Assembly (NCBI RefSeq): GCF_030499515.1
Contig: NZ_JASTWJ010000001.1
Coordinates: 8,474,001-8,538,000, forward strand
Direction of reading: 5' to 3'
Origin: Streptomyces sp. DT2A-34
GTDB taxonomy: Bacteria > Actinomycetota > Actinomycetes > Streptomycetales > Streptomycetaceae
Length of the DNA: 64,000 bases
Both the position numbers and the translations under genes were made by a program. Every line of letters begins with the position of its first letter. Positions within the stretch are counted from its first letter, which is position 1. The notes below the pieces were generated by a model. That model made no database searches. It saw only the letters and a program-made list of their open reading frames with translations, and was not told the origin of the DNA. Shown in pieces: positions 9,285 through 52,091 of the stretch.

Positions 9285-9599
9285 ATGACGCAGCTCGTGG
9301 TCACGCTGGACCTCGACGGGGTCACGGACAAGGCGGGCCTGATGGACCGCTGCGCCCGCGCCCTGGACCTGCCCGACTGGTTCGGCCGCAACTGGGACGC
9401 CCTCGCCGACTCCCTGCGCGACCACACCGTATGGCCCGAGGGCGCCGTCGAGCAGGGGCTGCTGATCGTCGTACGGAACTGGCGGCCCTACGCGAAGGCG
9501 CGGCCCGACGAGTGGGAGACCGCTCAGGAGGTCTTCTCCGAAGCGGTGGACCGCACGCCGGCACTCTCCGTGACGGTCGCTCTCGGAGGATCCTCCTAA
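9285..9599 (+). CDS. Barstar-family protein (ribonuclease inhibitor fold)
   Basis: 104 residues from ATG 9285 (MTQLVVTLDLDGV). The segment LPDWFGRNWDALADSL matches the barstar core (helix carrying the YGxNxDALxD pattern), and the rest fits the small alpha/beta fold. Known barstars bind and inhibit the secreted RNase barnase; related proteins without a linked RNase are common in actinobacteria, and no ribonuclease gene is seen next to this one. An in-frame ATG at 9246 would begin inside the 13-bp repeats; neither start has a strong ribosome site. Cytoplasmic. Confidence 0.85.
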   Translation: MTQLVVTLDLDGVTDKAGLMDRCARALDLPDWFGRNWDALADSLRDHTVWPEGAVEQGLLIVVRNWRPYAKARPDEWETAQEVFSEAVDRTPALSVTVALGGSS

Positions 9600-11263: not shown

Positions 11264-11758
11264 ATGGAGATCGCCGCCTGCCGGGCCGAGGACATCGAGG
11301 TGCTGGATCGCGTCATGCCGTCGCGCAGCGTCGACGGCAACCATGCTGCCCGCTTCGCACGGCAGGAGGCCGGGGGCAGCACTTATCTGATCCCGTGGCT
11401 GGACGGCAGGCCCGTGGGCCACGCGCAGGTGCGCTGGACCGGGTGCGCGGCGCCGGAGGTGCGGGCCGCGCAGCCGGGCTGCCCGGAGATCAACGGCCTC
11501 TTCGCCTGGCCCGAGTCGCTCCGCTCCCAGGGCATCGGCACCGCTGTGGTGAGCGCTGCCGAGCGGCTGGCGCGGGAGCGCGGCGTCGGCGTCATGGGCC
11601 TCGGCGTCGGCGACGACAACCCGCGCGCGGCGGCGCTCTACGCACGGCTCGGGTACCTGCCCACGGTGGCCTACGTCGACCGCTGGGCCCACCTCGACGA
11701 CCACGGTGTACAGCATGAGCAGGCCGACGCCTGCGTGTTCCTGGTGAAGGCCCTCTGA
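11264..11758 (+). CDS. GNAT-family N-acetyltransferase
   Basis: 164 residues with a GNAT fold. The acetyl-CoA pyrophosphate loop is represented by RSQGIGTAV at about residues 87-95, and NPRAAALYARLGY near 126-138 is the usual last helix and strand. Substrate unknown. A TAGGGT -10 box at 11252-11257 is only 6 bp before the ATG at 11264, so the mRNA is probably leaderless. Located between guaB1 and the permease, in the same orientation but separated from guaB1 by a terminator. Confidence 0.85.
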   Translation: MEIAACRAEDIEVLDRVMPSRSVDGNHAARFARQEAGGSTYLIPWLDGRPVGHAQVRWTGCAAPEVRAAQPGCPEINGLFAWPESLRSQGIGTAVVSAAERLARERGVGVMGLGVGDDNPRAAALYARLGYLPTVAYVDRWAHLDDHGVQHEQADACVFLVKAL

Positions 11759-11764
11759 GAGCCC

Positions 11765-11884
11765 TCGCGCAACGGTCGAAAGCCATCGCGCAACGAACAC
11801 CCACCCAACCCCCAGGAACGCAATGATCTTGCGGGCATGCGCAAGGTTGCTGCATTACAACGGCAACGCCGCTCCTCATAGGCT
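11765..11884 (+). promoter_or_regulatory. Promoter region of the permease with repeated GCGCAACG boxes
   Basis: TCGCGCAACG occurs at 11765-11774 and again at 11786-11795, exactly 21 bp (two turns) apart. Further on are AACGCAAT (11818-11825), the palindrome TTGCG-N6-CGCAA (11829-11844) and GTTGC...GCAAC. A candidate promoter is TTACAA (11855-11860), 18 bp, TAGGCT (11879-11884). The same GCGCAACG word recurs upstream of the amidase gene at 16482-16542. The regulator is inferred to be the Lrp/AsnC protein encoded just after the permease. Confidence 0.5.
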
Positions 11885-11991
11885 GTCGCCTCGTACGTGG
11901 CGTGGCAGGGACCCCGCTCGGTGGGTTCCTGCTGTCGCAGGGTGCCGCCGGTCCCCGCCGCCCTGAGAGGCAGCGACGAAGGAGTCAGCGC

Positions 11992-13461
11992 GTGCTCGAT
12001 CAAGGCGCACCCCCGCAGAACCGCCCCCAGTCAGGCCCACCGTCCCCGGGTGTCGGCGCGCGCCTGATGCGTCGCAAGCCCGTGGAACACCTGGTCGCAG
12101 AGGGTGGTCAGGGTGAGGGAGGGTCCCTGCGGCGCTCCCTGGGGCTGTGGCAGCTCACCATGATCAGCATCGGTGCCACCCTCGGCACCGGCATCTTCGT
12201 CGTCCTCGGCGACGCCGTCCCCGAGGCCGGTCCCGCGGTCACCCTGGCCTTCGTGATCGCCGGTCTGACGGCGCTGTTCTCGGCCCTGTCGTACGCCGAG
12301 CTGGCGGGCAGCATCCCGGTCGCGGGCTCCTCGTACTCATACGCATACGCAACGATGGGCGAGCTGGTCGCCTGGGTCTGCGGCTGGTGCCTGGTGCTGG
12401 AGTACGGCGTGTCGGTGGCCGCCGTCGCCGTCGGCTGGGGCGAGTACCTCAACGAGCTTCTCGACGGGACGATCGGGGTCACCATCCCGGCCGTGCTGTC
12501 CTCGGCGCCCGGCGAGGGCGGGATCATCAACCTGCCCGCGCTGATCGTCGTGCTGCTGGCGATGGTGTTCCTGCTCGGCGGCGTCCGCGAGTCCGCCCGC
12601 GCCAACACGATCATGGTCGCCGTCAAGATCGCCGCGCTGGTGCTGTTCTGCGCGGTCGGCTTCATGGGCTTCAAGTCCGGCAACTACGCCGACTTCATGC
12701 CGCTCGGCATGGCGGGCGTGAGCGCCGCCGGTGCCACGCTCTTCTTCTCCTACATCGGCTTCGACGCCGCCTCCACCGCCGGTGAGGAGGCCAAGGACCC
12801 CAAGCGGGACCTGCCGCGCGCGATCATGCTGTCGCTGATCATCGTCACCGCGCTGTACGTGCTCGTCGCGGGCGTCGCCGTCGGCGCCTGGAACTGGACC
12901 AAGTTCGAGGGTTCGGAAGCCTCCCTCGCCGCGATCATGAACGACGTCAGCGGCCAGTCCTTCTGGGGCACGCTGCTCGCCCTCGGCGCGGTCATCTCCA
13001 TCGCGAGCGTGGTCCTGACCGTGCTCTACGGCCAGACCCGCATCCTCTTCGCGATGTCCCGCGACGGCCTGGTGCCCAAGGCGCTCGGCAAGGTCCACCA
13101 CAAGACGGGCGCACCCCGCCTCAACACGGTCATCGTGTCCCTGTTCTGCGGTGCGCTCGCCGCACTCATACCGCTGGGCAAGCTCGTCGACGCCACCAGC
13201 ATCGGCACGCTGTTCGCCTTCGGCCTGGTCAACATCGCGGTGATCGTGCTGCGTTACCGGCGGCCGGAGCTCGAGCGCACGTTCAGGGTGCCGTTCGGGC
13301 CGGTGCTGCCGGTGCTGGGGTTCCTGTTCTGCGCGTACAACATGTTCAGCCTGGACACCGTGACCTGGGTCGTCTTCGGGTGCTGGATGGCCGCGGGTCT
13401 CGTGTTCTACTTCCTGTACGGCTATCGCCGTTCCCGTCTTGCAACACCAGAAGTGAAGTGA
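11992..13461 (+). CDS. APC-superfamily amino acid permease, cationic amino acid transporter type
   Basis: 489-residue inner-membrane permease with about 12-14 hydrophobic segments. N-terminal ISIGATLGTGIFVVLGDAV at TM1 is the APC signature, and overall spacing resembles the CAT subfamily that carries cationic amino acids. GTG start at 11992 with AAGGAG 7 nt upstream; the longer frame upstream is not needed. Its stop is only 10 bp before the Lrp/AsnC gene, so the two are cotranscribed. Sharing operator-like motifs with the amidase/monooxygenase pair about 4.7 kb downstream suggests it imports their substrate (lysine or arginine); that link is inference. Confidence 0.9.
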   Translation: MLDQGAPPQNRPQSGPPSPGVGARLMRRKPVEHLVAEGGQGEGGSLRRSLGLWQLTMISIGATLGTGIFVVLGDAVPEAGPAVTLAFVIAGLTALFSALSYAELAGSIPVAGSSYSYAYATMGELVAWVCGWCLVLEYGVSVAAVAVGWGEYLNELLDGTIGVTIPAVLSSAPGEGGIINLPALIVVLLAMVFLLGGVRESARANTIMVAVKIAALVLFCAVGFMGFKSGNYADFMPLGMAGVSAAGATLFFSYIGFDAASTAGEEAKDPKRDLPRAIMLSLIIVTALYVLVAGVAVGAWNWTKFEGSEASLAAIMNDVSGQSFWGTLLALGAVISIASVVLTVLYGQTRILFAMSRDGLVPKALGKVHHKTGAPRLNTVIVSLFCGALAALIPLGKLVDATSIGTLFAFGLVNIAVIVLRYRRPELERTFRVPFGPVLPVLGFLFCAYNMFSLDTVTWVVFGCWMAAGLVFYFLYGYRRSRLATPEVK

Positions 13462-13471
13462 ACCACCCGCA

Positions 13472-13924
13472 GTGCTGAACGATCTCGACGAACGCATCGT
13501 GCACGCCCTCGCCGAGGACGCCCGCCGCTCCTACGCGGACATCGGGCAGCTCGTCGGCCTGTCCGCGCCCGCCGTGAAGCGGCGCGTGGACCGGCTGCGC
13601 GCCACCGGAGCCATCACCGGGTTCACCGTCCGGGTGGATCCGGCGGCGCTCGGCTGGGAGACCGAGGGGTTCGTCGAGATCTACTGCCGGCGCAACACCT
13701 CGCCGGAGACGATCCAGCGGGGGCTGGAGCGGTATCAGGAGGTCGTGGCCGCGTCCACCGTCACCGGTGAGGCGGATGCGGTCGTGCAGGTCTTCGCCTC
13801 CGACATGCGGCACTTCGAGCGGGTGCTGGAGCGGATCGCGGGGGAGCCGTTCGTGGAGCGGACCAAGTCGGTGTTGGTGTTGTCGCCGTTGCTGCGGCGG
13901 TTCTCTTCGGGGTCACCTGCGTAG
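13472..13924 (+). CDS. Lrp/AsnC-family transcriptional regulator
   Basis: 150 residues: N-terminal winged HTH (LDERIVHALAEDARRSYADI, then LSAPAVKRRVDRL) and a C-terminal RAM/AsnC ligand-binding domain (about 65-145). Such proteins form octamers that wrap DNA and respond to an amino acid. GTG start at 13472, 10 bp after the permease stop, so it is in one operon with the permease and is the best candidate to bind the phased GCGCAACG boxes at 11765 and 16482. Confidence 0.92.
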   Translation: MLNDLDERIVHALAEDARRSYADIGQLVGLSAPAVKRRVDRLRATGAITGFTVRVDPAALGWETEGFVEIYCRRNTSPETIQRGLERYQEVVAASTVTGEADAVVQVFASDMRHFERVLERIAGEPFVERTKSVLVLSPLLRRFSSGSPA

Positions 13925-13935
13925 TGTCTTTTCCG

Positions 13936-14009
13936 CGGGGCGGTGGGGGCTTGTCGCGCCCACGCGGCGGAGCCGCACATCTATACAGCCCCGCGCCCCT
14001 GAAGGGCGC
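13936..14009. repeat. Common streptomycete intergenic repeat with hairpins
   Basis: G/C-rich element recognised from many Streptomyces intergenic regions (recalled, not searched). Contains GCGGCGGAGCCGC and the hairpin GCGCCC-CTGAA-GGGCGC (13993-14009). It lies between convergent genes and encodes the last residues (RALQGRGAV) and the TAG stop (13981-13983) of the minus-strand gene. Confidence 0.5.
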
Positions 14010-14358
14010 GTTTGCGCACCGTCCTCAGCATGCGCCGTACGGCCACCTTGTGCCCGCGGGTCCCGATCACGAGGAGCCGGTAGAGGCGGCCGGCCGGGCC
14101 CGGGAACGTGGCCCTGCTCTCGGCACGCACCCGGGTGTGCCCCGTGGCAGCCTCCTCCAAGCGGAAGACCAAGGCGTACGTCGAGAAGCGATGGCTTCCG
14201 GCGAGCGCCAGCTCCTTCCCCGGGACCGCGGTGACGACGTGGAACAAGGGGTGGTCCACGGTGTCGGCGATGGCCTGCCAGACGGCGTCCGGCGCCGCGG
14301 CGACGACCGACGTGTGCGCGTCGACGAACGGCAGGTCGTGGATCTCGGTGGCGTCCAT
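13981..14358 (-). CDS. DUF2867/SRPBCC-like small protein
   Basis: 125 residues from ATG 14358. The order of elements (VDAHTSVVAAAPDAVWQAI, then GSHRFSTYALVFRLEE, then RLYRLLVIGTRGHKVAV) fits the helix-grip SRPBCC fold, closest to DUF2867. Such proteins bind small hydrophobic ligands, but none can be named here. The frame is open upstream to 14535 without a better start. Its 3' end lies in an intergenic repeat and it converges on the Lrp/AsnC gene. Confidence 0.65.
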   Translation of the reverse strand: MDATEIHDLPFVDAHTSVVAAAPDAVWQAIADTVDHPLFHVVTAVPGKELALAGSHRFSTYALVFRLEEAATGHTRVRAESRATFPGPAGRLYRLLVIGTRGHKVAVRRMLRTVRKRALQGRGAV

Positions 14359-14615
14359 GCCGGCAGTCTCGCGCGCCGCCTCGCGCACCGGCGTCCTCCC
14401 GCGGGCCGACGTCCGTCGCCGCGCGGCGGAGGTGTCCGGCGCCCGCCTCCTCCTGGGGAAGGGCACCCGGCACCGCATTCCCGCTGCGCTCGCGCGCCCC
14501 GCCCGCCTACCATCGATGCCATGACCTGGCGACATTGATCCACCAGCCGTGCCTCCCGAGGGCCGCCTCGGACGCCGTACCCCCGGTGTCCGAACAGTCC
14601 CTTCGGGAAGGCCTC

Positions 14616-15812
14616 ATGACACTCTCACCTGCGCGTGTGCCCGCCACCGGTGCCCGGCGGCTCACGGCCACGCTGTACGGCTACTCGTTCCTCGACGACT
14701 TCGTCCTGCTCTACCCGGTGTACGCGCTGCTGTTCGCCGACACCGGCCTGTCGCTCTGGCAGATCTCCTCCCTGTTCGCCCTGTGGTCGATCACCGCCGT
14801 CCTGCTGGAGGTCCCCTCCGGCGCCTGGGCCGACGCCGTCTCGCGGCGGCTGTTGCTGTGGCTCGGCCCGCTGCTCACGGCCGTCGGCTTCGGGCTGTGG
14901 GTGCTGGTGCCGTCGTACGGGGCCTTCGCGCTCGGCTTCGTCCTGTGGGGCGCCGGCGGAGCGCTCGGCTCCGGTGCGCTGGAGGCGCTGGTGTACGACG
15001 AGCTGGACCGGCTGGGTGCCGCCGACCGGTATGCGCGGGTCACGGGCCGGGCCAGGGCCGCGCGACTGGTGGGCACGATGGCCTCCGTCGGCCTTGCGGG
15101 GCCCGCCTTCGCCCTGGGCGGCTATGCGGCCGTCGGCGCGGCGAGCGTCCTGGCCTGTCTGCTGACCGCCGCGACGGCGACCCGGTTCCCGGAGCACCGG
15201 GTGCCGCCGGAGACCGGGGGCGACAGCTGGGCGACGACTTTGCGGACCGGACTCGCCGAGATCCGCAGGGACCGTTCCGTGCGCGGTGCGCTGCTGCTGA
15301 TCCCCGCCGTCGCGGCCGTGTGGGGGGCGCTCGACGAGTACACCCCGCTGCTGGTCCGGGACATCGGCGTCGCCGAGGCGACCGTCCCCTGGCTGATCCT
15401 GCTGATCTGGGCGGGCGTCACCGCCGGAAGCCTGCTGACCGGGCCGGCCGAACGCCTCGGCACGAGAGGGCTCGCGGCGCTGCTGGCGGGCGCCGCGCTC
15501 GCCCTGGCCGTGGGAGCCGCGGCCGGCACAGTGGCCGGCATCGCCCTCGTCGGCCTCGCCTTCGGCGGGTTCCAGCTGGCGGAGGTGCTGGCCGACGTCC
15601 GTCTCCAGCACCGGATCGACGAGTCCCGCCGGGCCACCCTCACCTCGGTGGCGAGTCTGGGCACCGAACTGGCCACGGTCGCCACGTTCGGCGTGTACGC
15701 GCTGCTCGGTACAAGGGCGGCGCACAGCACGGTGTTCGCGGTACTCGCGGTTCCCTACCTGGTGACGGCGTTGGCCCTGGCTAGAAATCGGGCTGCCACG
15801 GCACGACCGTGA
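14616..15812 (+). CDS. MFS transporter
   Basis: 398-residue major facilitator with about 12 membrane segments. Family signs: PSGAWADAVSRR (motif A loop between TM2 and TM3) and a second-half repeat around SLLTGPAERLGTRG. Start ATG at 14616 with GGGAAGG close upstream; earlier in-frame codons to 14535 are charged and unlikely. Probably a drug or metabolite exporter. Its last 32 bp overlap, tail to tail, the 3' end of the secreted protein gene on the other strand. Confidence 0.85.
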   Translation: MTLSPARVPATGARRLTATLYGYSFLDDFVLLYPVYALLFADTGLSLWQISSLFALWSITAVLLEVPSGAWADAVSRRLLLWLGPLLTAVGFGLWVLVPSYGAFALGFVLWGAGGALGSGALEALVYDELDRLGAADRYARVTGRARAARLVGTMASVGLAGPAFALGGYAAVGAASVLACLLTAATATRFPEHRVPPETGGDSWATTLRTGLAEIRRDRSVRGALLLIPAVAAVWGALDEYTPLLVRDIGVAEATVPWLILLIWAGVTAGSLLTGPAERLGTRGLAALLAGAALALAVGAAAGTVAGIALVGLAFGGFQLAEVLADVRLQHRIDESRRATLTSVASLGTELATVATFGVYALLGTRAAHSTVFAVLAVPYLVTALALARNRAATARP

Positions 15813-16326
15813 AATCGCCGGTGCCCTGCCTGACCTTCTCGAAGGGCGCCGAGCTCACGCACTTGGGCAGGTCCTTCGGGCCCAGGTCCTCGGTCGTCGC
15901 CCAGCTGTAGCCGAGCCGGTCGTGGCGGCCGAGGTCGTGCACCGTGATGCCCACCCGCTTGCCCTTCTCGCCCGGCAGGTCCGTGTCGGTGACCACGCCG
16001 GAGACGACGGCCACCTTGCCCCCGGTGACGAGGCAGTCGACCTTCGCCTTCGCCCAGGCGCCCTCGCCGTTCAGGTAGTGGCTCCACTCGAAGGTGCCGG
16101 TCGCCTTCATCGGGTCGGCCTGGTCCGCGCCGGCGAGGTGCGCGTCGAACGAGAACGTGATGTCGTCCCCGGCCGAGCGGTAGAGCTTGGCGGTGCCGGT
16201 GAGCGCGGCGGCCTCTCGCTGCGCCGACGCGTCCGATGCGGTGGTGGTGGCGGTCGCGGCGGTGGCCGCTCCGGCGGTGCGCAGCAGTGCGGAGCCGAGC
16301 ACGACGATCTTCGTACGGCGCTTCAT
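15781..16326 (-). CDS. Secreted hypothetical protein (signal peptide, two conserved Cys)
   Basis: 181 residues. KRR followed by a hydrophobic, Ala-rich stretch is a Sec-type signal peptide ending near residue 35. The mature part is beta-rich: GTAKLYRSAGDDITFSFDAH, then a stretch with Cys98, then GVVTDTDLPGEKGKRVGITV and a second Cys near residue 156, so one disulfide is likely. Streptomycete genomes carry similar proteins sometimes labelled repetin; no activity is known to me. ATG at 16326. Its promoter region also faces the amidase operon. Confidence 0.8.
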   Translation of the reverse strand: MKRRTKIVVLGSALLRTAGAATAATATTTASDASAQREAAALTGTAKLYRSAGDDITFSFDAHLAGADQADPMKATGTFEWSHYLNGEGAWAKAKVDCLVTGGKVAVVSGVVTDTDLPGEKGKRVGITVHDLGRHDRLGYSWATTEDLGPKDLPKCVSSAPFEKVRQGTGDFTVVPWQPDF

Positions 16327-16481
16327 GGCGGTCCTTTCCGCAGGTCAAGTGGACAGTCCCCACTCTCCCGGCGCCGCGCCCGCACCACATCGCGCCGGGG
16401 ACGGGACCTCGCCTCGGCCGTCCGGCGGGGGAGGCCGGTCGGGCGTGCGCCTCGAGGAGGACCGGGGCTACGACGGAGGGC

Positions 16482-16580
16482 GCGCAACGAATCGCCGTCG
16501 ACGCCTTGGCGCACGCAACAAACCGCTCACCGGCGCGCAACGGCTCCTTCTTGTCCGCCCTGCTCAGCCGCCCGTACCGT
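16482..16580 (+). promoter_or_regulatory. Amidase operon promoter with phased GCGCAACG boxes
   Basis: Within the 310-bp gap 16327-16636. GCGCAACG at 16482-16489, a variant ACGCAACA at 16513-16520 and GCGCAACG at 16535-16542 are spaced 31 and 22 bp, i.e. three and two helical turns, on one face of the DNA. The last lies 8 bp upstream of a promoter TTGTCC (16551-16556), 18 bp, TACCGT (16575-16580). The motif is shared with the permease promoter at 11765-11795. Phasing fits an Lrp-type multimer. Confidence 0.5.
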
Positions 16581-16636
16581 CTACATGGCCCCTACACGGC
16601 CCTCCTGCCCCCCCTTCCGCCCGGTGAGGAACACGC

Positions 16637-17425
16637 ATGCGCACCGCCCTGCTCCAGAGCTCCGGCCGACCCGGCTCGACCGTCGAGAACCTCAAGGTGC
16701 TCGACGACGCCGCGGGCCGTGCCGCCGCCGCGGGCGCCGGGCTGCTGGTCGCGCCGGAGATGTTCCTGACCGGGTACGCGATCGGCGACGACATCGCCCG
16801 CCTCGCCGAACCGGCCGACGGCGACTGCGCGGACGCGATCGCCGAGACCGCGACACGGCACGGCCTGGCGATCGCCTACGGCTACCCCGAGCGGGCCGGC
16901 GACGCCGTCTTCAACTCCGCCCAGCTGATCTCCGCCGACGGCACCCGGCTCGCGAACCACCGCAAGACCCACCTCTTCGGCTGCTTCGAGCGCGACCACT
17001 TCACGCCGGGGGACCAGCCGGTCGTCCAGGCCGAGCTCGACGGCCTCCGCGTCGGCATCCTGATCTGCTACGACGTCGAGTTCCCGGAGAACGTCCGCGC
17101 CCACGCCCTCGCCGGCACCGACCTCCTGGTCGTGCCGACGGCGCAGATGCACCCGTTCCAGTTCGTCGCCGAGTCGATGATCCCGGTGCGGGCCTTCGAG
17201 AACCAGATGTACGTCGCCTACGTCAACCGGGTCGGCCAGGAAGGGGAGTTCGAGTTCGTCGGCCTCTCCACCCTCGCCGGCCCCGACGGCGTCGCGCGCA
17301 CCCGCGCCGGCCGCGGTGAGGAGCTCGTGCTCGCCGACGTCGACCCCGTCTTCCTCGCCGCCTCCCGCGAGGCGAACCCGTATCTGAGGGACCGCCGCCC
17401 CGGTCTCTACGGCTCCCTGATCTGA
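16637..17425 (+). CDS. Carbon-nitrogen hydrolase, DavA-like omega-amino/guanidino amide amidase
   Basis: 262 residues of the nitrilase superfamily with the full catalytic triad Glu41 (APEMF), Lys110 (HRKTHLFG) and Cys144 (LICYDVEFPEN). The sequence pattern, including PEMFLTGY, YGYPER and the spacing, is very like Pseudomonas DavA (5-aminovaleramidase), which hydrolyses the amide formed by lysine 2-monooxygenase. In Streptomyces the parallel arginine route makes 4-guanidinobutyramide, so either amide may be the substrate. ATG 16637 with GAGGAA upstream. The FAD monooxygenase gene follows 52 bp downstream in the same operon, which strongly supports a two-step pathway. Confidence 0.9.
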   Translation: MRTALLQSSGRPGSTVENLKVLDDAAGRAAAAGAGLLVAPEMFLTGYAIGDDIARLAEPADGDCADAIAETATRHGLAIAYGYPERAGDAVFNSAQLISADGTRLANHRKTHLFGCFERDHFTPGDQPVVQAELDGLRVGILICYDVEFPENVRAHALAGTDLLVVPTAQMHPFQFVAESMIPVRAFENQMYVAYVNRVGQEGEFEFVGLSTLAGPDGVARTRAGRGEELVLADVDPVFLAASREANPYLRDRRPGLYGSLI

Positions 17426-17477
17426 GCCTCGATCCCCTCCTCCCGCAGTCCCTGTTTGTGCAAGGAGTCCGCACCCC

Positions 17478-19193
17478 ATGACGTCCACGGTGCCCAACGC
17501 CGTCCAGCACGCCGACGAGCAGCAGCCGCCGATCACCATGTTCGGCCCGGACTTCCCGTACGCGTACGACGACTTCCTCGCCCACCCGGCGGGGCTCGGC
17601 CAGATACCCGCGACCGAGCACGGCACCGAGGTCGCGGTCATCGGCGGCGGGCTCTCCGGCATCGTGGCCGCGTACGAGCTGATGAAGATGGGCCTCAAGC
17701 CGGTCGTGTACGAGGCCGACCAGATCGGCGGGCGGCTGCGGACCGTGGGCTTCGACGGCCCGGGCACCGAGGGCCTGACCGCCGAGATGGGCGCGATGCG
17801 GTTCCCGCCGTCCTCCACGGCGCTCCAGCACTACATCGACCTGGTGGGCCTGGAGACCCGGCCCTTCCCCAACCCCCTTGCCGAGTCGACCCCTTCGACG
17901 GTCGTCGACCTCAAGGGCGAGTCGCACTACGCCGAGACGATCGAGGACCTCCCGCAGGTCTACCGGGACGTCGCCGAGGCCTGGAACAAGTGCCTCGAAG
18001 AGGGCGCCGACTTCTCCGACATGAACCGGGCGATGCGCGAGCGGGACGTGCCGCGCATCCGTGAGATCTGGGCGAAGCTCGTCGAGAAGCTCGACAACCA
18101 GACCTTCTACGGCTTCCTCTGCGACTCCGAGGCCTTCAAGTCCTTCCGGCACCGCGAGATCTTCGGCCAGGTCGGCTTCGGCACCGGCGGCTGGGACACC
18201 GACTTCCCCAACTCCATCCTGGAGATCCTGCGCGTCGTCTACACCGAGGCCGACGACCACCACCGCGGCATCGTCGGCGGCTCCCAGCAGCTGCCGCTGC
18301 GCCTGTGGGAGCGCGAGCCGGAGAAGATCGTCCACTGGACCTACGGCACCTCGCTGGCGAGCCTGCACGAGAACGGCGCGCCCCGCCCGGCCGTGACCCG
18401 GCTGCACCGCACCGCGGGCAACCGCATCACCGTGACCGACGCGAACGGCGACATCCGTACCTACCAGGCGGCCGTCTTCACCGCCCAGTCCTGGATGCTG
18501 CTGTCGAAGATCGCCTGCGACGACTCGCTCTTCCCGATCGACCACTGGACCGCCATCGAGCGCACCCACTACATGGAGAGCTCCAAGCTCTTCGTGCCGG
18601 TCGACCGGCCCTTCTGGCTCGACAAGGCCGTCGACGACAGGGGAAATCCGACCGGCCGGGACGTCATGTCGATGACGCTCACCGACCGCATGACCCGCGG
18701 GACCTACCTGCTGGACGACGGTCCGGACAAGCCGGCCGTCATCTGCCTGTCGTACACCTGGTGCGACGACAGCCTGAAGTGGCTGCCGCTGTCCGCGAAC
18801 GAGCGGATGGAGGTCATGCTGAAGTCGCTCGGCGAGATCTACCCGAAGGTCGACATCCGCAAGCACATCATCGGCAACCCGGTGACGGTGTCGTGGGAGA
18901 ACGAGCCCTACTTCATGGGCGCGTTCAAGGCCAACCTGCCGGGCCACTACCGCTACCAGCGGCGCCTGTTCACGCACTTCATGCAGGACCGGCTGGCCGA
19001 GGACAAGCGGGGCATCTTCCTCGCCGGTGACGACATCTCCTGGACGGCCGGCTGGGCCGAGGGCGCGATCCAGACCGCGCTGAACGCGGTCTGGGGCGTC
19101 ATGCACCACTTCGGCGGGGCCACCGACCCGGGCAACCCGGGGCCGGGCGACGTGTACGACGAGATCGCGCCGGTCGAGCTGCCCGAGGACTGA
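17478..19193 (+). CDS. FAD amine oxidase family amino acid 2-monooxygenase (DavB/IaaM-like)
   Basis: 571 residues. FAD-binding GGGLSG at 56-61 with the Glu-containing YEADQIGGR segment, and C-terminal GDDISWTAGWAEGAIQTA closing the FAD site. The segment AEMGAMRFPP contains Arg108, equivalent to the arginine that binds the substrate carboxylate in tryptophan 2-monooxygenase. Enzymes of this branch convert an amino acid by oxidative decarboxylation to an amide with one carbon less. Together with the adjacent DavA-like amidase, the likely substrate is lysine or arginine, not a simple amine. Start ATG 17478 with AAGGAG 10 nt upstream. Cytoplasmic. Confidence 0.9.
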   Translation: MTSTVPNAVQHADEQQPPITMFGPDFPYAYDDFLAHPAGLGQIPATEHGTEVAVIGGGLSGIVAAYELMKMGLKPVVYEADQIGGRLRTVGFDGPGTEGLTAEMGAMRFPPSSTALQHYIDLVGLETRPFPNPLAESTPSTVVDLKGESHYAETIEDLPQVYRDVAEAWNKCLEEGADFSDMNRAMRERDVPRIREIWAKLVEKLDNQTFYGFLCDSEAFKSFRHREIFGQVGFGTGGWDTDFPNSILEILRVVYTEADDHHRGIVGGSQQLPLRLWEREPEKIVHWTYGTSLASLHENGAPRPAVTRLHRTAGNRITVTDANGDIRTYQAAVFTAQSWMLLSKIACDDSLFPIDHWTAIERTHYMESSKLFVPVDRPFWLDKAVDDRGNPTGRDVMSMTLTDRMTRGTYLLDDGPDKPAVICLSYTWCDDSLKWLPLSANERMEVMLKSLGEIYPKVDIRKHIIGNPVTVSWENEPYFMGAFKANLPGHYRYQRRLFTHFMQDRLAEDKRGIFLAGDDISWTAGWAEGAIQTALNAVWGVMHHFGGATDPGNPGPGDVYDEIAPVELPED

Positions 19194-19217
19194 GCGCGTA
19201 GCCCGTAGCGAAGAGGA

Positions 19218-20145
19218 TCAGATCCCGGCGGCCCGCGCCTTCTCGTACACCTCCGCGGCGACGTCCTTGAGCTCCTGGGCGTCGCGCACGGTGCTCTGGA
19301 GGTCGACGAAGATCTCGTCCAGGCCGACCTCGGCGTACGCGGCCAGGTCCTCCACGATCTGGTCGACACTGCCGTGGAAGGGCGGGCGGTCGGAGCCCTC
19401 GTATCCCTTGGCGGAATAGCGCGCGTTGGTGCGCACGACCGTCTGGATCGGTTCCGTGCGACCCCGCTCGGCGGCCAGCTCCCGCAGCTCCTGCCACTGC
19501 TCGGCCAGCGACTCGGCGCTCAGGGCGACGGGCATCCACCCGTCGGCGTGGTCCACGAGCCGGCGGCGCGCCTTGGGGGTGGCGGCGGCAAGCAGGATCG
19601 GGATGGGCCGGGCGGGCTTGGGGCCGACCACGGAGGGGGCGATCTTCGTGATCCGGCCGTCGTACGACACCGGGTCCGGGCCCCACACCGCGCGGCAGAC
19701 CTCGAGCACCTCGTCCAGGACCTGGCCGCGCTCCTCGAAGGGACGGACGGAGGCGGCCGCGTACTCGTCGTGCGACCAGCCGGTGCCGAGGCCCGCGACG
19801 AGGCGGCCGCCGCTCGCCGCGTCCAGGGTGGCGAGCGACTTGGCGAGCTGGAAGGGCACGTGCAGCGGGGCCACCAGCACGCTGGTGCCGAGCCGGGCCC
19901 GCTCGGTCGCCGCGGCCGCCAGCGTGAGCGTGACCAGCGGGGGCGACCCCGCGGTAGTCGTCCGGCCAGGGCAGGCCCTCGATGCCGTACAGGCCCTGGG
20001 TGGCGGGCTCGGGGAACAGGGCCCGCTCGTAGACCCACAGGCTCTCGTAGCCGACCGCCTCGGCGGCGCGTGCCACGTCCGGGACGTCCCTGCCGAGGTC
20101 GTACTGCCTGTTCTGGGGGAGTGCGAGTCCGAGCCGAGTCGCCAT
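19218..20145 (-). pseudogene. LLM-class F420-dependent oxidoreductase, frameshifted
   Basis: Starts at ATG 20145 (MATRLGLALPQNRQYDLG) and runs in one frame to about 19945, then continues in another frame (PLVTLTLAAAATERARLG) to the stop at 19218. Removing one base from the G5 run at 19939-19943 (or the adjacent C4 run) restores a 308-residue luciferase-like monooxygenase. Such enzymes use F420 (or FMN) with an unknown substrate. The intact remainder shows no other defect, so a sequencing error is quite possible. It converges on the amine oxidase gene, 24 bp apart. Confidence 0.8.
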
Positions 20146-20233
20146 GCCTGTGCTCCTTTGCAAGAGGTCCAGTCATGTCGAACGTACAACGTTCATCTAG
20201 TGGTTGAGGGGCCTCGGCGCAGGAGTGGCCGGA

Positions 20234-20920
20234 TCAGACCGGCAGTGGCGTGAGCAGCATGCGTCCCGCGAACCCCACCGCCCCGTCCAGCCGCTCGGTG
20301 AACTCCTCGGCGACGTCCGGCAGTCGGCGCAGCGCCCACAGGGCACGGGCCGCCGACCAGGTGGCGTCCCGGGCCCGCTCCAGGCTCCAGGAGCCGAGCA
20401 GATGGGTGAGCGGGTCGGCGATCTGAAGCAGGTCGGGACCCGGCATCAGATCTTCGCGGATGTGCTCCTCCAGCGAGACGAGGAGATCACCCACGCGGTC
20501 GAACTCGTCCTCCAGCTCGGCGGGTTCGCAGTCGAGGCTACGACAGGCGTCCACCACGGCGAGCGCCAGGTCGTGCCCGATGTGCGCATTGATGCCCGCG
20601 AGCGCGAACTGCAGCGGTCGTACGCCGGGATGGCGGCGCATCTGGAACAGGGGCCGCCAGCAGGCCGGTGGGCGCTGCTCGTCCTCGGCCGCCTCCACCG
20701 CTGCGAGAAACCGCTCCGCGAACCGCACGTCCAGCGTGATCGCGGCCCGCGCGTCCGTGAACCGGCCGCCGTCGATGTGCCGGTCGAACGCCTCCGTGAC
20801 GGTGAGGTAGACGCGGTTGAAGACCGCGATTCCGTCGGCTTCGGGCAGGGCCGCGTCGAGGGCGCGCATACGGGAGATGACCGCGTCCACAGGTGTGGTG
20901 AATTGTTCGCATTGCGCCAT
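20234..20920 (-). CDS. DUF5995-family protein
   Basis: 228 residues, mostly helical. The segment FALAGINAHIGHDLALAV near residues 105-122 is typical of DUF5995, proteins of unknown function common in actinobacteria; the conserved His and Asn/Asp might bind a metal, by analogy only. ATG 20920. Divergent from the GH6 gene, with 105 bp between them. No signal peptide, so probably cytoplasmic. Confidence 0.8.
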   Translation of the reverse strand: MAQCEQFTTPVDAVISRMRALDAALPEADGIAVFNRVYLTVTEAFDRHIDGGRFTDARAAITLDVRFAERFLAAVEAAEDEQRPPACWRPLFQMRRHPGVRPLQFALAGINAHIGHDLALAVVDACRSLDCEPAELEDEFDRVGDLLVSLEEHIREDLMPGPDLLQIADPLTHLLGSWSLERARDATWSAARALWALRRLPDVAEEFTERLDGAVGFAGRMLLTPLPV

Positions 20921-21025
20921 GGGGGCAGAGTCCCAGCTTTAGGCTGGCGGGAGTGTCGGCGGGCCCGGCGCTTCCCCAGAACGGGGGAACGCGCGCTCGC
21001 TGTTGGGGGGAGGGGGAGCAGGACC

Positions 21026-22246
21026 GTGCCAGGCTTACGTGCCCAGCGACTGGCCGCACGCAGGTCCGAGCGCAGGAGGGCGGCCCGGCGCCATGCCATG
21101 GCCGTGGCGGCGTCTGTCGTGGTGGCCGTCGGTACCGCGACCGGCATGATCTCCGCGCTCGACGACAGGGGGCGCTCCGACGAGGCCAGGCCGGCCGAGA
21201 CGACGCGCTCACCGAGCTTTCAGTCCCTGCCGCCCGTGCACTCGGCCTACCCGTCGGTCACGAAGTCCCCTTCGCCGATGGCCACTTCACCGACTCCGAA
21301 GAAGCAGGCGAGCCCCGCGAGCCCCGCGAGCCCCATGCCCTCGCCGACCAGGACCGAGCGAAAGCAGCAGCCGGCCGTGGTGTCCGCCCGCCTCTACCGC
21401 CATCCCGACTCCCAGGTCCTGGAGTGGGTCCGCGACAACGCGGGCGACCCGCGCCACGCCGTCATAGAGTCCCGGATCGCCGCCCAGCCGGCCGCCGTGT
21501 GGTTCGCCGACTTCACGCCGGACACCGTCACCGCCCGGGTCCGCGCGGTCACTTCGGGCGGGGCGGCGCTGGGGCGGGTGCCGGTGGTCGTGCCGTACGC
21601 GATACCGGACCGTGACTGCGGCGGGTACTCCGAGGGCGGGGCGCCCGACCTCGACGCGTACGACGCCTGGATCGACAGGTTCGCCGCGGGGCTGGGCTCC
21701 GGCGACGTCATCGTGATCCTGGAGCCCGACTCCATCGCCCAGTCCGAGTGCCTGTCCGCCGGGGAACGCGCCGACCGCTTCGCCTCGTTGGCCCGCGCGG
21801 GCCGCGCCTTCAAGGCCGCGAACCCGAAGGCACGCGTGTACTACGACGCCGGGCACTCCGGCTGGAACACGCCCGCGAAGCAGGCGGAGCGGCTGAAGCA
21901 GGCCGGCGCCGCCTCGGCCGCCTCCTCCGACGGCATCTTCAGCAACGTCTCCAACTTCCACGCCACGAGCGACGAGATCGCCTACGACCGACAGGTCCTC
22001 GACGCCCTCGGCGGCCCGGCGAGCCTGGGCGCCGTCATCGACACCAGCCGCAACGGCGCCGGGGCTCCGGCCGACGGCGAGTGGTGCGATCCGGCGGGCC
22101 GCAGGCTGGGCCGGGCGCCGACGCTCAGCACCGGCGAGGCGCGGATCGACGCCTACCTGTGGGTGAAGCTGCCGGGGGAGTCGGACGGGTGCAAGGGGAG
22201 GCCGGGGACCTTCACGGCGTCGTACGCCTATGACTTGGCGCGCTGA
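21026..22246 (+). CDS. Secreted or anchored GH6-family glycoside hydrolase (endoglucanase/cellobiohydrolase)
   Basis: 406 residues. Arg-rich N-terminus and one hydrophobic segment (about residues 25-45, a signal peptide or anchor), then a Pro/Ser/Thr-rich linker to about residue 115, then the GH6 catalytic domain. GH6 landmarks: IPDRDCGGYS (with the general acid Asp), VILEPDSIAQ, NVSNFHATSDE, VIDTSRNGAG and the Trp-Cys-Asp near the end. GH6 enzymes cleave beta-1,4-glucan with inversion. No carbohydrate-binding module. GTG 21026 follows GGGGGAG by 7 nt; a TAGGCT box at 20940-20945 may be the -10. The stop overlaps the 3' end of the GlxA/AraC remnant. Confidence 0.88.
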   Translation: MPGLRAQRLAARRSERRRAARRHAMAVAASVVVAVGTATGMISALDDRGRSDEARPAETTRSPSFQSLPPVHSAYPSVTKSPSPMATSPTPKKQASPASPASPMPSPTRTERKQQPAVVSARLYRHPDSQVLEWVRDNAGDPRHAVIESRIAAQPAAVWFADFTPDTVTARVRAVTSGGAALGRVPVVVPYAIPDRDCGGYSEGGAPDLDAYDAWIDRFAAGLGSGDVIVILEPDSIAQSECLSAGERADRFASLARAGRAFKAANPKARVYYDAGHSGWNTPAKQAERLKQAGAASAASSDGIFSNVSNFHATSDEIAYDRQVLDALGGPASLGAVIDTSRNGAGAPADGEWCDPAGRRLGRAPTLSTGEARIDAYLWVKLPGESDGCKGRPGTFTASYAYDLAR

Positions 22247-22758
22247 GAGAACGCGCTCTGCGTCGTGTGCCGGACCGGGGTGGCGCGGAACCGGGCCCGG
22301 TACTCGCTCGGCGTCGTGGCGAGGCGGCGGCGGAATGCCCGGATCAGGGTGTCGACGGTGCCGAACCCGCAGCGGGAGGCGACCCGTTCGAGTGTGTCGT
22401 CGGTGGTCTCCAGCAGGTTGCCGGCCATCTCGACCCGGGCCGACTCGATGTAGGCGTGCGGCGTCGTGCCGAGTTCGGTCTTGAAGATCCGGGTGAGCTG
22501 CCGGTCGCTGACATGCGCGTACGCGGCCAGGTCCGGGACGGTCAGGCGCCGGTCGATGTTGTTCAGGATGTGGTGCCGGAGGTCTTCGATGCGGCGCGTC
22601 GTGGACACCTGCTCCAACGGCACGCTGAACTGCGACTGCCCGCCGGGTCGCTTCAGGTACATCACGAGCTGGCGGGCGACGCGCAGCGCGACCGCCTCGC
22701 CGAAGTCCTCCGCGACCAGCGCGAGGGACAGGTCCAGCACGACGGCGGCGAGGGTTCG
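22228..22758 (-). pseudogene. GlxA/AraC-type regulator, C-terminal fragment
   Basis: The C-terminal about 170 residues of a GlxA-like regulator (DJ-1/PfpI domain plus two HTH motifs). Visible: the end of the DJ-1-like domain (VARQLVMYLKRPGGQSQF) and the complete AraC DNA-binding domain (VPDLAAYAHVSDRQLTRIF; RVASRCGFGTVDTLIRAFRR). Beyond about 22758 the similarity ends and the frame runs antisense to an isochorismatase remnant, so the N-terminal two thirds and start are gone. In Streptomyces this regulator type often sits divergent from an isochorismatase-type gene; a deletion has apparently joined the two genes head to head. Confidence 0.8.
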
Positions 22759-23099
22759 CCCTACGACATCCGCGCGGAGATCGGCGCGATCCACCCCGAT
22801 GTGGCGCCGATCGACGGCGAGTCCGTGGTCGTCAAGCAGGCCCCGGACGCCTTCCACGGCACCGAACTCGGCAAGCTCGTGGACGAGACCGTGATCGTCG
22901 CCGGGTTCATGACCCACATGTGCATCGCGTACACGTCGGCGTCGGCGGCCTGCGCGGCAACAAGCCCACCGTGCCGGCGGACGCGTGCGCCACCCGGTCG
23001 ATCGTGGACGTGTTCGCCGACGAGCTGCACCGCAGTGCGCTGGCGGCCATCGCCGACGCGTACGGCGTGGTCGTCGCCTCCGGCGAAGAGCTGGCCTGA
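22741..23099 (+). pseudogene. Isochorismatase-family cysteine hydrolase, 5'-truncated and frameshifted
   Basis: Starts abruptly at a DGGEGSPYDIR segment, continues through VVVKQAPDAFHGTELGKLVDE and VIVAGFMTHMCIAYT (the catalytic Cys is present), appears to lack about four codons after VDE, then shifts frame near 22945 into GNKPTVPADACATR and ends at TGA 23097 (GVVVASGEELA). No start codon or N-terminal Asp motif remains. Nonfunctional. It is a paralogue of the next gene, which begins one base after its stop. Confidence 0.8.
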
Positions 23100-23100
23100 C

Positions 23101-23786
23101 ATGGCGTCCCGCCGCGGGTTCCTGAAGGTCGGCGGTGCGGCCGTCGTCGGCGGCGCCGGGGTGTTCGGCGCCACCCGGCTGGGCGACAGCCCCGCGCAGG
23201 CGGCGGACGCGGACACGTCGGGCACGACGACGCTGCGCAAGCTCAACGGCCTGGCCGACAAGCCGGCTTCGCTCGCCTCCGCCACTTTGATCATGGTCGA
23301 CTACCAGAACACCTACACCCGGGGTGTCATGGAACTGACCCGCTGGCAGGCGGCCCTGGACGCCGCGGCCGAGCTGCTGAGCGCGGCCCGCGAGGCGGGC
23401 GGGAAGGTCATCCACATCGTCAATGACGGCGGGGAGAACACCCCGTACGACATCCGTCGGCCGATCGGCGAGATCCACGACCGGGTCAAGCCCGCGAAGG
23501 GCGAGCGGACCGTGGTGAAGAAGGCCCCCGACGCCTTCGTGAACACCGACCTCGGCAGGTCGACGAGGCGGGGAACGAGAACCTGGTCATCGCCGGGTTC
23601 ATGACGCACATGTGCGTGACGTTCACCGCCGAGGGTGCGTTCCTTCGCGGGAACAAGCCCACCGTGGTCGCGGACGCCTGCGCCACCCGGCCGCTGCCGT
23701 CGGTCGGGGGCGGACTGTCCGCCGAGCAGATCCACCAGAGCGCGCTGGCGACGATCGCCGACCTGTACGGCGTCGTCGTTTACGCT
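23101..23786 (+). pseudogene. Tat-exported isochorismatase-family hydrolase, frameshifted and 3'-truncated
   Basis: ATG 23101 begins a twin-arginine signal (SRRGFLK, hydrophobic stretch, AQA near residue 38), then the isochorismatase fold with ATLIMVDYQNTY (catalytic Asp) and VVKKAPDAFVNTDLG. The frame breaks near 23560; homology goes on in another frame (VDEAGNENLVIAGFMTHMC, then GNKPTVVADACATR and LATIADLYGVVV) to about 23780, where it runs into an unrelated transporter fragment. The first frame ends at 23604. The catalytic Cys is in the shifted part, so the product as written would be inactive. Confidence 0.8.
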
Positions 23787-24072
23787 GCTCGGGCTGCGCA
23801 CGGACGGCCCGCGGGCCGCCGCCGAGCTCTCGGGGATGGCGCAGACCGTCGGCTACCTGCTGGCCGGCCTCGGCCCGCTGGCCATGGGGGTACTCCACAA
23901 CGCCACCGGCGGCTGGCAGGTGCCGCTCACCGCCCTGATCGCTCTGGTGGTACCGGAGGCGATCGCAGGACTCCTCGCCGCCCGCCCCGGCCACGTACGC
24001 CCTGGCGACGGCGAGGACAACCCGGCGAAGCGCACGGCTTCGCGCGCTGACGGTCAGCTCGTCCGGCTGTAG
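23781..24072 (+). pseudogene. MFS transporter (CynX/NimT-like), C-terminal fragment
   Basis: About 97 codons matching the last membrane segments of a CynX/NimT-type MFS protein: FTLLGLRTDGPRAAAELSG, then AQTVGYLLAGLGPLAMGVLH, then a final hydrophobic segment and a charged tail ending at TAG 24070. It joins the isochorismatase remnant directly, without a start, so it is the end product of a deletion. Confidence 0.75.
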
Positions 24073-51382: not shown

Positions 51383-51650
51383 GGATTTTCTCCCCCTCGG
51401 GCTGGGCCGTGAAGGCGCTGCGGCCTCGACCACAGCAAGCACTTCCCGTCCGATCTCAGCGGTAATCACGAGAACATCACGGAGCCTGTTCGAGGCCTGT
51501 GGCGTTCGTCACATGCCGCCCGCAGGTGCCCGGCGCGGCCGGTTTGTCCCTCAGTCGGCCCACAGGCGGCTCTCGGCCACATCACAAACCGGGCATGACC
51601 TGGGCTGCTCAGGTATCCGAGGAGATCAACCGCACTGTAGGTTCTGCGTC

Positions 51651-52091
51651 ATGGAGGAGCTGGACCGGCAAATCGTGCAGCTGCTCGTCAAGGACGGGCG
51701 GATGAGTTACACCGACCTGGGCAAGGCCACGGGCCTGTCCACATCGGCCGTGCACCAGCGGGTGCGCCGGCTGGAGCAGCGCGGCGTCATCCGCGGTTAC
51801 GCCGCGGTCGTCGACCCCGAGGCGGTGGGGCTGCCCATGACCGCGTTCATCTCGGTGAAACCGTTCGACCCCAGCGCTCCCGACGACATCGCGGAGCGGC
51901 TGGCCGGGGTGCCGGAGATCGAGGCCTGCCACAGCGTCGCCGGGGACGAGAACTACATCCTCAAGGTCCGGGTGGCCACGCCGCACGAGCTGGAGGAGCT
52001 GCTGGCTCGGCTCCGGTCGCTGGCGGGGGTTTCGACTCGGACGACGGTGGTGTTGTCGACGCCGTACGAGGCACGGCCACCGCGGATCTGA
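51651..52091 (+). CDS. Lrp/AsnC-family transcriptional regulator
   Basis: 146 residues: winged HTH (MEELDRQIVQLLVKDGRMSY, LSTSAVHQRVRRLEQ) and a RAM domain ending in a short C-terminal tail. A TAGGTT -10 box at 51638-51643 is 7 bp from the ATG at 51651, so this mRNA is probably leaderless. Target unknown; the downstream amidohydrolase, 47 bp away, is a candidate. Confidence 0.9.
   Translation: MEELDRQIVQLLVKDGRMSYTDLGKATGLSTSAVHQRVRRLEQRGVIRGYAAVVDPEAVGLPMTAFISVKPFDPSAPDDIAERLAGVPEIEACHSVAGDENYILKVRVATPHELEELLARLRSLAGVSTRTTVVLSTPYEARPPRI

Follow-up and report, generated by a model that had tools for sequence, protein, structure and literature searches.

The pairing of an amino acid 2-monooxygenase with an amidase is known from DavB-DavA of Pseudomonas putida, which degrade lysine. 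Both reactions that we propose below for arginine have been described for azalomycin, with an arginine monooxygenase and a 4-guanidinobutyramide hydrolase (PMC5082578), while the closest relative of determined structure, L-AAO/MOG (AIU 813; PDB 3we0, 5yb6-8), prefers lysine and displays an oxidase activity on arginine that is 6% of that on lysine (PMC5832979). In Streptomyces, a ureohydrolase cleaved 4-guanidinobutyrate in vitro (PMC5704753), and gabT of S. coelicolor is induced by arginine, as summarized in a review (PMC9397018). Here we analyze a related locus in a 64,000-nucleotide stretch of the 10.3-Mb genome of Streptomyces sp. DT2A-34 (C1:8474001-8538000, hereafter the window), comprising genes for a permease, an Lrp/AsnC regulator, an amidase and a flavin adenine dinucleotide (FAD)-dependent monooxygenase, all four present with intact frames.

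Based on comparisons of this locus to homologous loci and to proteins of known structure, we consider it probable that the four genes form a catabolic arginine regulon operating as follows. The permease would import a basic amino acid, and the flavoenzyme would oxidatively decarboxylate L-arginine, its presumed substrate, to 4-guanidinobutyramide, which the amidase would hydrolyse to 4-guanidinobutyrate and ammonia. Two enzymes with genes at other places in the genome, one guanidinobutyrase-like and the other a 4-aminobutyrate (GABA) transaminase, would then generate GABA and urea and, finally, succinate semialdehyde. The Lrp/AsnC protein, co-made with the permease, would bind the CGCAACG repeats that precede each of the two gene groups and respond to arginine or an arginine product, the ligand as well as the direction of regulation being predicted.

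Results

The monooxygenase (17478..19193, plus strand; FAD amine oxidase-type, PF01593; proposed L-arginine 2-monooxygenase) matches L-AAO/MOG with 782 bits, compared to 194 for tryptophan monooxygenase and 45-48 for phenylalanine and glutamate oxidases in the PDB. These scores rule out a tryptophan or phenylalanine monooxygenase, the identity that a first-pass annotation of this DNA had set against its own proposal of a lysine/arginine 2-monooxygenase. Of that proposal the basic amino acid type stands (782 bits, Asp242 kept), and it can be narrowed, short of proof, to arginine through the neighbouring genes and one pocket residue.

Ten pocket residues named for L-AAO/MOG (PMC5832979) were mapped, and each letter matched its stated number. 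Seven are kept (Arg102, Trp235, Asp238, Tyr416, Trp418, Phe473 and Trp516 in L-AAO/MOG numbering, used below), whereas Cys254, Gln258 and Ala515 are replaced by Ala258, His262 and Gly525 of the window enzyme. The equivalents of Arg102, Asp238, Tyr416 and Trp516 are Arg108, Asp242, Tyr426 and Trp526, of which Asp242 corresponds to the binder of the side-chain amine. Arg108, previously assigned to carboxylate binding, indeed aligns with the residue that holds the alpha-amino/carboxyl end of the substrate. Gln258 and Ala515, the letters of the lysine enzyme, are replaced in the window enzyme (His262, Gly525) and may serve as markers of lysine use; in the tryptophan and phenylalanine enzymes, glycine at 515 together with phenylalanine at 235 widens the pocket (PMC5832979). 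The window enzyme is of a known type, and the system as a whole is not of a new kind.

The amidase of the nitrilase superfamily (16637..17425, plus strand; PF00795), a putative 4-guanidinobutyramide amidase, retains the catalytic residues Glu41, Lys110 and Cys144 in alignment, as the earlier annotation had read them. It lies 52 bp before the monooxygenase gene on the same strand, and the operon suggested for the two is borne out by their pairing across loci. Neither protein reaches an NCBIfam equivalog cut-off. The main set for this comparison consists of the best 80 of 592 matches, which are 80 distinct loci, plus 30 further loci (110 in total); as one of the latter is the window and at least 10 duplicate loci of the 80, the safe count is 80. 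The two genes are adjacent in 80 of the 80 distinct loci, and in all 110, duplicates included, they share a strand, 42-297 bp apart (median 56.5).

The best 80 of the 592 matches belong to Streptomyces (79) and Microtetraspora (1). In a genus sample of 199 genomes, the window's own included, 191 match the monooxygenase at E 1e-200 or better; the exceptions are one with a fragment at a contig edge (G073), six with weak matches only (G037, G079, G120, G121, G156 and G186) and one without a monooxygenase match (G050). Outside the genus the enzyme is scattered, accounting for 26 of the 65 positive genomes in a class sample of 394, and a phylum sample of 396 contains four positives outside the genus, two of them new. 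A genus member, G1098, carries two full-length copies (on C166 and C37), both about 64-65% identical to the enzyme of the outside locus L128 described below.

The Lrp/AsnC regulator (13472..13924, plus strand) begins 10 bp past the permease stop and possesses both the AsnC-type helix-turn-helix (PF13404) and the RAM ligand domain (PF01037), confirming its earlier family assignment. Among the 73 distinct loci whose upstream DNA extends to 9 kb or more, lrp (93-100% identical) occurs within 9 kb upstream in 53 and the permease in 38. The separation of the two halves by unrelated genes, as first described, holds for the window, where three apparently unrelated genes intervene, but not for 12 of the 73 loci, where lrp precedes the amidase by under 900 bp and is accompanied by the permease in 11 cases. 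In eight loci guaB1 is followed by lrp with no recognised permease between them, and in five of these (L055, L056, L091, L111 and L112) the DNA before lrp resembles the 3' end of a permease gene since lost, lrp being kept. In seven of nine examined loci of a further family, f89, permease, amidase, monooxygenase and Lrp occur together, the other two being cut by contig ends; the f89 Lrp is 59-62% identical to that of the window, and f89 matches outside the locus set are found in G858, G955, G1010, G1065 and G1073. L127, L156 and L173 likewise have a permease close to the enzyme, with 59-60% identity. Between the amidase and permease genes, L127 and L156 have a PucR-like stretch, 32% identical to a PucR-type regulator gene beside the ureohydrolase gene of the window genome.

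Before the amidase gene, an alignment of 109 loci and the window (repeats among them) reveals three conserved repeats with a GCAAC core (16481..16546, plus strand; cores at 16483, 16514 and 16536), followed by a conserved stretch (16550..16584, plus strand; CTTGTCC ... TACCGTCTA) that resembles a promoter. In 107 of 110 amidase-upstream rows, duplicates included, three or four GCAA[CT][GA] words fall within 250 bp. The same repeats are found upstream of the permease (11766..11856, plus strand; CGCAAC-type cores near 11768, 11789, 11819 and 11840), conserved across 33 loci aligned with the window, and both arrays are candidate Lrp operators. The spacings, 31 and 22 bp before the amidase and 21, 30 and 21 bp before the permease, are near whole helix turns and suited to a multimeric Lrp. 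The longer word CGCGCAACGR is present four times in the window, all in these two promoters, with 1.1 copies expected. Genome-wide, the only two pairs of this word less than 1,994 bp apart are those of the permease and amidase promoters (21 and 53 bp), and about 0.04 pairs within 60 bp would be expected under random placement.

A matrix built from the amidase-promoter sites alone and scanned over both window strands ranked its own three sites 1-3 and the permease sites at 11768, 11789, 11819 and 11840 as 10, 4, 7 and 234. This Streptomyces-trained matrix was also applied to eight of the nine f89 loci, with L170, cut before the amidase gene, omitted. It yielded p ≤0.033 for five of eight amidase promoters (others 0.099, 0.219 and 0.338) and p ≤0.02 for six of seven permease promoters (other 0.556), while none of eight lrp promoters reached 0.05; a less than clean control came from the DNA upstream of the monooxygenase gene, with two of eight at 0.033. 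Common control of the permease and amidase groups is supported by this shared sequence pattern. The earlier proposal that the Lrp controls both sites is accordingly backed as far as control by one factor goes, with this particular Lrp as the putative binder.

Two cores at a distance of 13-15 bases occur at four places in the genome, one being the permease promoter (reversed control, three), and the one of the other three that was examined in context, L140, has no visible link. As a longer site with two mismatches matches the genome as frequently as its reversed control (110 and 105), we claim no further target. By eye, no convincing repeats precede the ureohydrolase gene or two transaminase genes; a tandem-repeat finder returned nothing for 11700-19300, and the fuzzy pattern CGCAACGRNNCGC with one mismatch is at chance level (9 matches, 12.2 expected).

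The distinction between arginine and lysine was approached through 24 outside loci (L127-L130 and L156-L175, L175 being a second copy in a Streptomyces). A ureohydrolase gene is located near the enzyme in L128, L130, L157 and L173; in the ligase-linked copy L175 the distance is 5.4 kb. In L128, the gene row comprises amidase, monooxygenase, regulator, ureohydrolase, a thiamine pyrophosphate (TPP) enzyme, two semialdehyde-dehydrogenase-like genes and a GABA transaminase. The best model of the L128 TPP enzyme is 5-guanidino-2-oxopentanoate decarboxylase, below cut-off, as are the semialdehyde-dehydrogenase-like genes; the GABA transaminase is over cut-off, and so is one in the window genome. The latter genome has one strong ureohydrolase gene, whose product is 69% identical to that of L128 and in the PDB scores 287 bits with guanidinobutyrase, 260 with proclavaminate amidinohydrolase and 227 with agmatinase. 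An agmatinase is therefore less likely by PDB score than a guanidinobutyrase, though the protein passes NCBIfam models named agmatinase, and we infer guanidinobutyrase activity for these ureohydrolases.

Pocket letters were compared in an alignment of 38 sequences, from which a midpoint-rooted tree was built. Gln258 and Ala515 occur together in L-AAO/MOG, L129, L159 and L169. Ala254, His258, Gly515 and Trp516 are shared by the window enzyme, nine homologues, nine f89 enzymes, L127, L128, L156, L157, L165 and L173, and Gly515 with Phe516 by seven ligase-linked sequences (L116, L117, L118, L171, L172, L174 and L175). Mixed letters are seen in L130 (Phe254, Gln258, Gly515, Trp516) and L160 (Leu254, His258, Gly515, Trp516). 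Gly515 is hence found in every ureohydrolase- or ligase-linked enzyme aligned and may represent the older state. The tree places L157 and L173 on the side of the window enzyme. Judged from neighbours and pocket letters, arginine is the likelier substrate than lysine.

The permease (APC superfamily, CAT/GkApcT-like; 11992..13461, plus strand; PF13520, PF13906) has 489 codons from a conserved GTG at 11992, probably its start, preceded by a conserved AAGGAG. Its description as cationic-type stands at the family level, GkApcT being its closest solved relative (429 bits), but not beyond, as the best NCBIfam equivalog, BcaP, scores under its cut-off. Glu115 and Asp237 of GkApcT are kept. Met321 is valine in the window permease and serine in human CATs, and its exchange to serine in GkApcT lowers the half-maximal inhibitory concentration (IC50) of arginine from 6 mM to 11.4 uM (PMC5803215). 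The residues thus allow basic amino acid transport, but do not show it.

Second copies of the monooxygenase are present in five (G055, G096, G150, G165 and G180, that of G150 in pieces) of 40 large genomes out of the 199. They are 62-64% identical to the window enzyme (66% over the partial one) and adjoin a gene that in L116 is an AMP (adenosine monophosphate)-ligase, with VinK-like acyltransferase, thioesterase and ABC-transporter genes nearby. These copies are probably starter-unit enzymes of the azalomycin kind. L174 is a distant relative (41-42% identical) with ligase-like and amidase-like genes beside it and phenylalanine at 516. The window itself has no match to the AMP-ligase, and its enzyme has tryptophan (Trp526) in place of Phe516.

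Several other features of the window were observed. An open reading frame (ORF) at 20204-22246 has a glycosyl hydrolase family 6 domain in its later part, and on the opposite strand a DUF5995 gene (20234-20920) is found, which most related loci likewise have close to the monooxygenase gene. Two ORFs at 22267-24050 each match part of an isochorismatase domain, the first with two matching stretches, and look like broken or duplicated hydrolase genes in tandem. A barstar-type inhibitor gene (PF01337) is located at 9288-9599 and another Lrp/AsnC-like stretch, with 33% identity to the studied Lrp, at 51648-52058. A search of a plasmid collection gave no match.

Discussion

Several observations weigh against the arginine regulon and are considered together here. 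Arginine as the substrate is a prediction from sequence. No more than 4 of the 24 outside loci, or 5 if L175 is counted, have a ureohydrolase gene close to the enzyme, and the one in the window genome is about 2 Mb from the locus, without convincing repeats. The tree joins L127, L128 and L156 to L-AAO/MOG (support 1.0) although they have the pocket letters of the window enzyme, and it places L130 inside this group despite its Gly515, so that half of the four ureohydrolase-linked loci fall on the side of the lysine enzyme; the preference for arginine over lysine is a Gly515 correlation that the tree cuts across. Regarding regulation, lrp is outside the 9-kb stretch in 20 of 73 loci, 2 of 100 window shuffles likewise gave four CGCGCAACGR copies, and genome-wide the word is not enriched (79, compared to 90 for the reversed control). 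Finally, S. lividans is stated to have no arginine monooxygenase, and the azalomycin cluster transplanted into it was productive only with 4-guanidinobutyramide feeding (PMC5082578). This conflicts with genome G631, which encodes ActVA-Orf6 at 97% identity and the present enzyme at 93%; the genome is perhaps near S. coelicolor and S. lividans, but may be neither species. The core enzyme may not act on arginine or may not be induced, its amide may be eaten by the cell's own amidase, or S. lividans may have lost the gene. Due to this conflict, we rate the arginine regulon no higher than probable.

A lysine pathway resembling DavB-DavA, from L-lysine via 5-aminovaleramide to 5-aminovalerate and on by transamination, with lysine as signal and the same regulation, would explain the S. 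lividans feeding result. The preference of the closest solved and assayed relative for lysine and the unchanged side-chain-binding aspartate agree with such a route, and GabT-like genes in the vicinity of the enzyme (L128, L159, L160 and L169) fit arginine and lysine routes alike, 5-aminovalerate being equally suitable. However, Ala515 of L-AAO/MOG is glycine in the window enzyme, L129, L159 and L169 keep the alanine while the ureohydrolase-linked enzymes do not, and a ureohydrolase has no role in lysine degradation. We therefore consider lysine unlikely, if still a serious candidate.

Oxidase action in practice, converting arginine (or lysine) to the 2-keto acid and peroxide, with decarboxylation by the TPP enzyme beside the ureohydrolase gene and the amidase acting elsewhere, appears improbable. 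In the window genome the ureohydrolase gene is indeed followed by one for a TPP enzyme related to 5-guanidino-2-oxopentanoate decarboxylase, below the model cut-off, and position 254, where exchange to isoleucine abolished the monooxygenase activity of L-AAO/MOG (PMC5832979), is alanine. Yet an oxidase has no need of the amidase gene that accompanies the enzyme in every distinct locus, and Ala254 is also present in ligase-linked enzymes, whose published route is that of a monooxygenase (PMC5082578). A role in supplying a polyketide with guanidino starter units, as for azalomycin, is suggested by the homologues with 62-64% identity beside an AMP-ligase gene elsewhere, to which L116 adds a VinK-like acyltransferase and a thioesterase. 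This role is highly improbable for the window enzyme, as the one strong copy in its genome is without such neighbours and carries tryptophan at 516, where all seven ligase-linked enzymes aligned have phenylalanine.

Beyond the catabolic arginine regulon as such, a wider interpretation is offered tentatively, and with appreciably more reserve. A near-universal Streptomyces regulon for a catabolic arginine 2-monooxygenase, shared with some other actinobacteria, may contain the gene of the genus' old oxygen-dependent arginine route, with a dedicated Lrp acting at only two promoters; alanine or glycine at 515 would then be a lysine/arginine switch, and tryptophan or phenylalanine at 516 would mark catabolic or polyketide-starter enzymes. 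If true, this would supply genes, regulator and operator, in most species sampled, for an arginine route of Streptomyces described from its products, as well as a two-residue rule predicting lysine or arginine use and catabolism or polyketide starters. The conflict with the published S. lividans statement is relevant to the production of guanidino polyketides in that species, and the shared repeats before both gene groups make common control directly testable. In the titles and abstract starts listed by full-text literature searches, which covered few subscription papers, no description of the regulon, its repeats or the pocket subtypes was found; a term search of PMC4737276 was likewise empty, and the regulon is apparently undescribed.

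Compared to known systems, the locus shares with DavB-DavA, to which we liken it by description and not by sequence, the 2-monooxygenase paired with an amidase, and differs in the proposed substrate, arginine, and in the association with an Lrp and a permease. The arginine route of S. griseus, to which EC (Enzyme Commission) number 1.13.12.1 is presumably attached, likewise leads from arginine to 4-aminobutyrate in Streptomyces. It is called an oxidase/dehydrogenase pathway, with an uncharacterised first enzyme and no gene named in the passage concerned (PMC2242806). Among proteins of determined structure, GkApcT of the CAT family is closest to the permease, sharing both acidic residues but not Met321 (PMC5803215), and L-AAO/MOG is closest to the monooxygenase, with 58% identity and seven of ten named pocket residues in common; the known enzyme prefers lysine and has cysteine, glutamine and alanine where the window enzyme has alanine, histidine and glycine. 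The azalomycin arginine monooxygenase and 4-guanidinobutyramide hydrolase correspond to the two proposed reactions, and monooxygenases encoded beside ligase genes, probable homologues that may be the published ones, show 62-64% identity to the window enzyme. The window system differs from them in its catabolic setting, in having tryptophan and not phenylalanine at 516, and in being near-universal in the genus sample.

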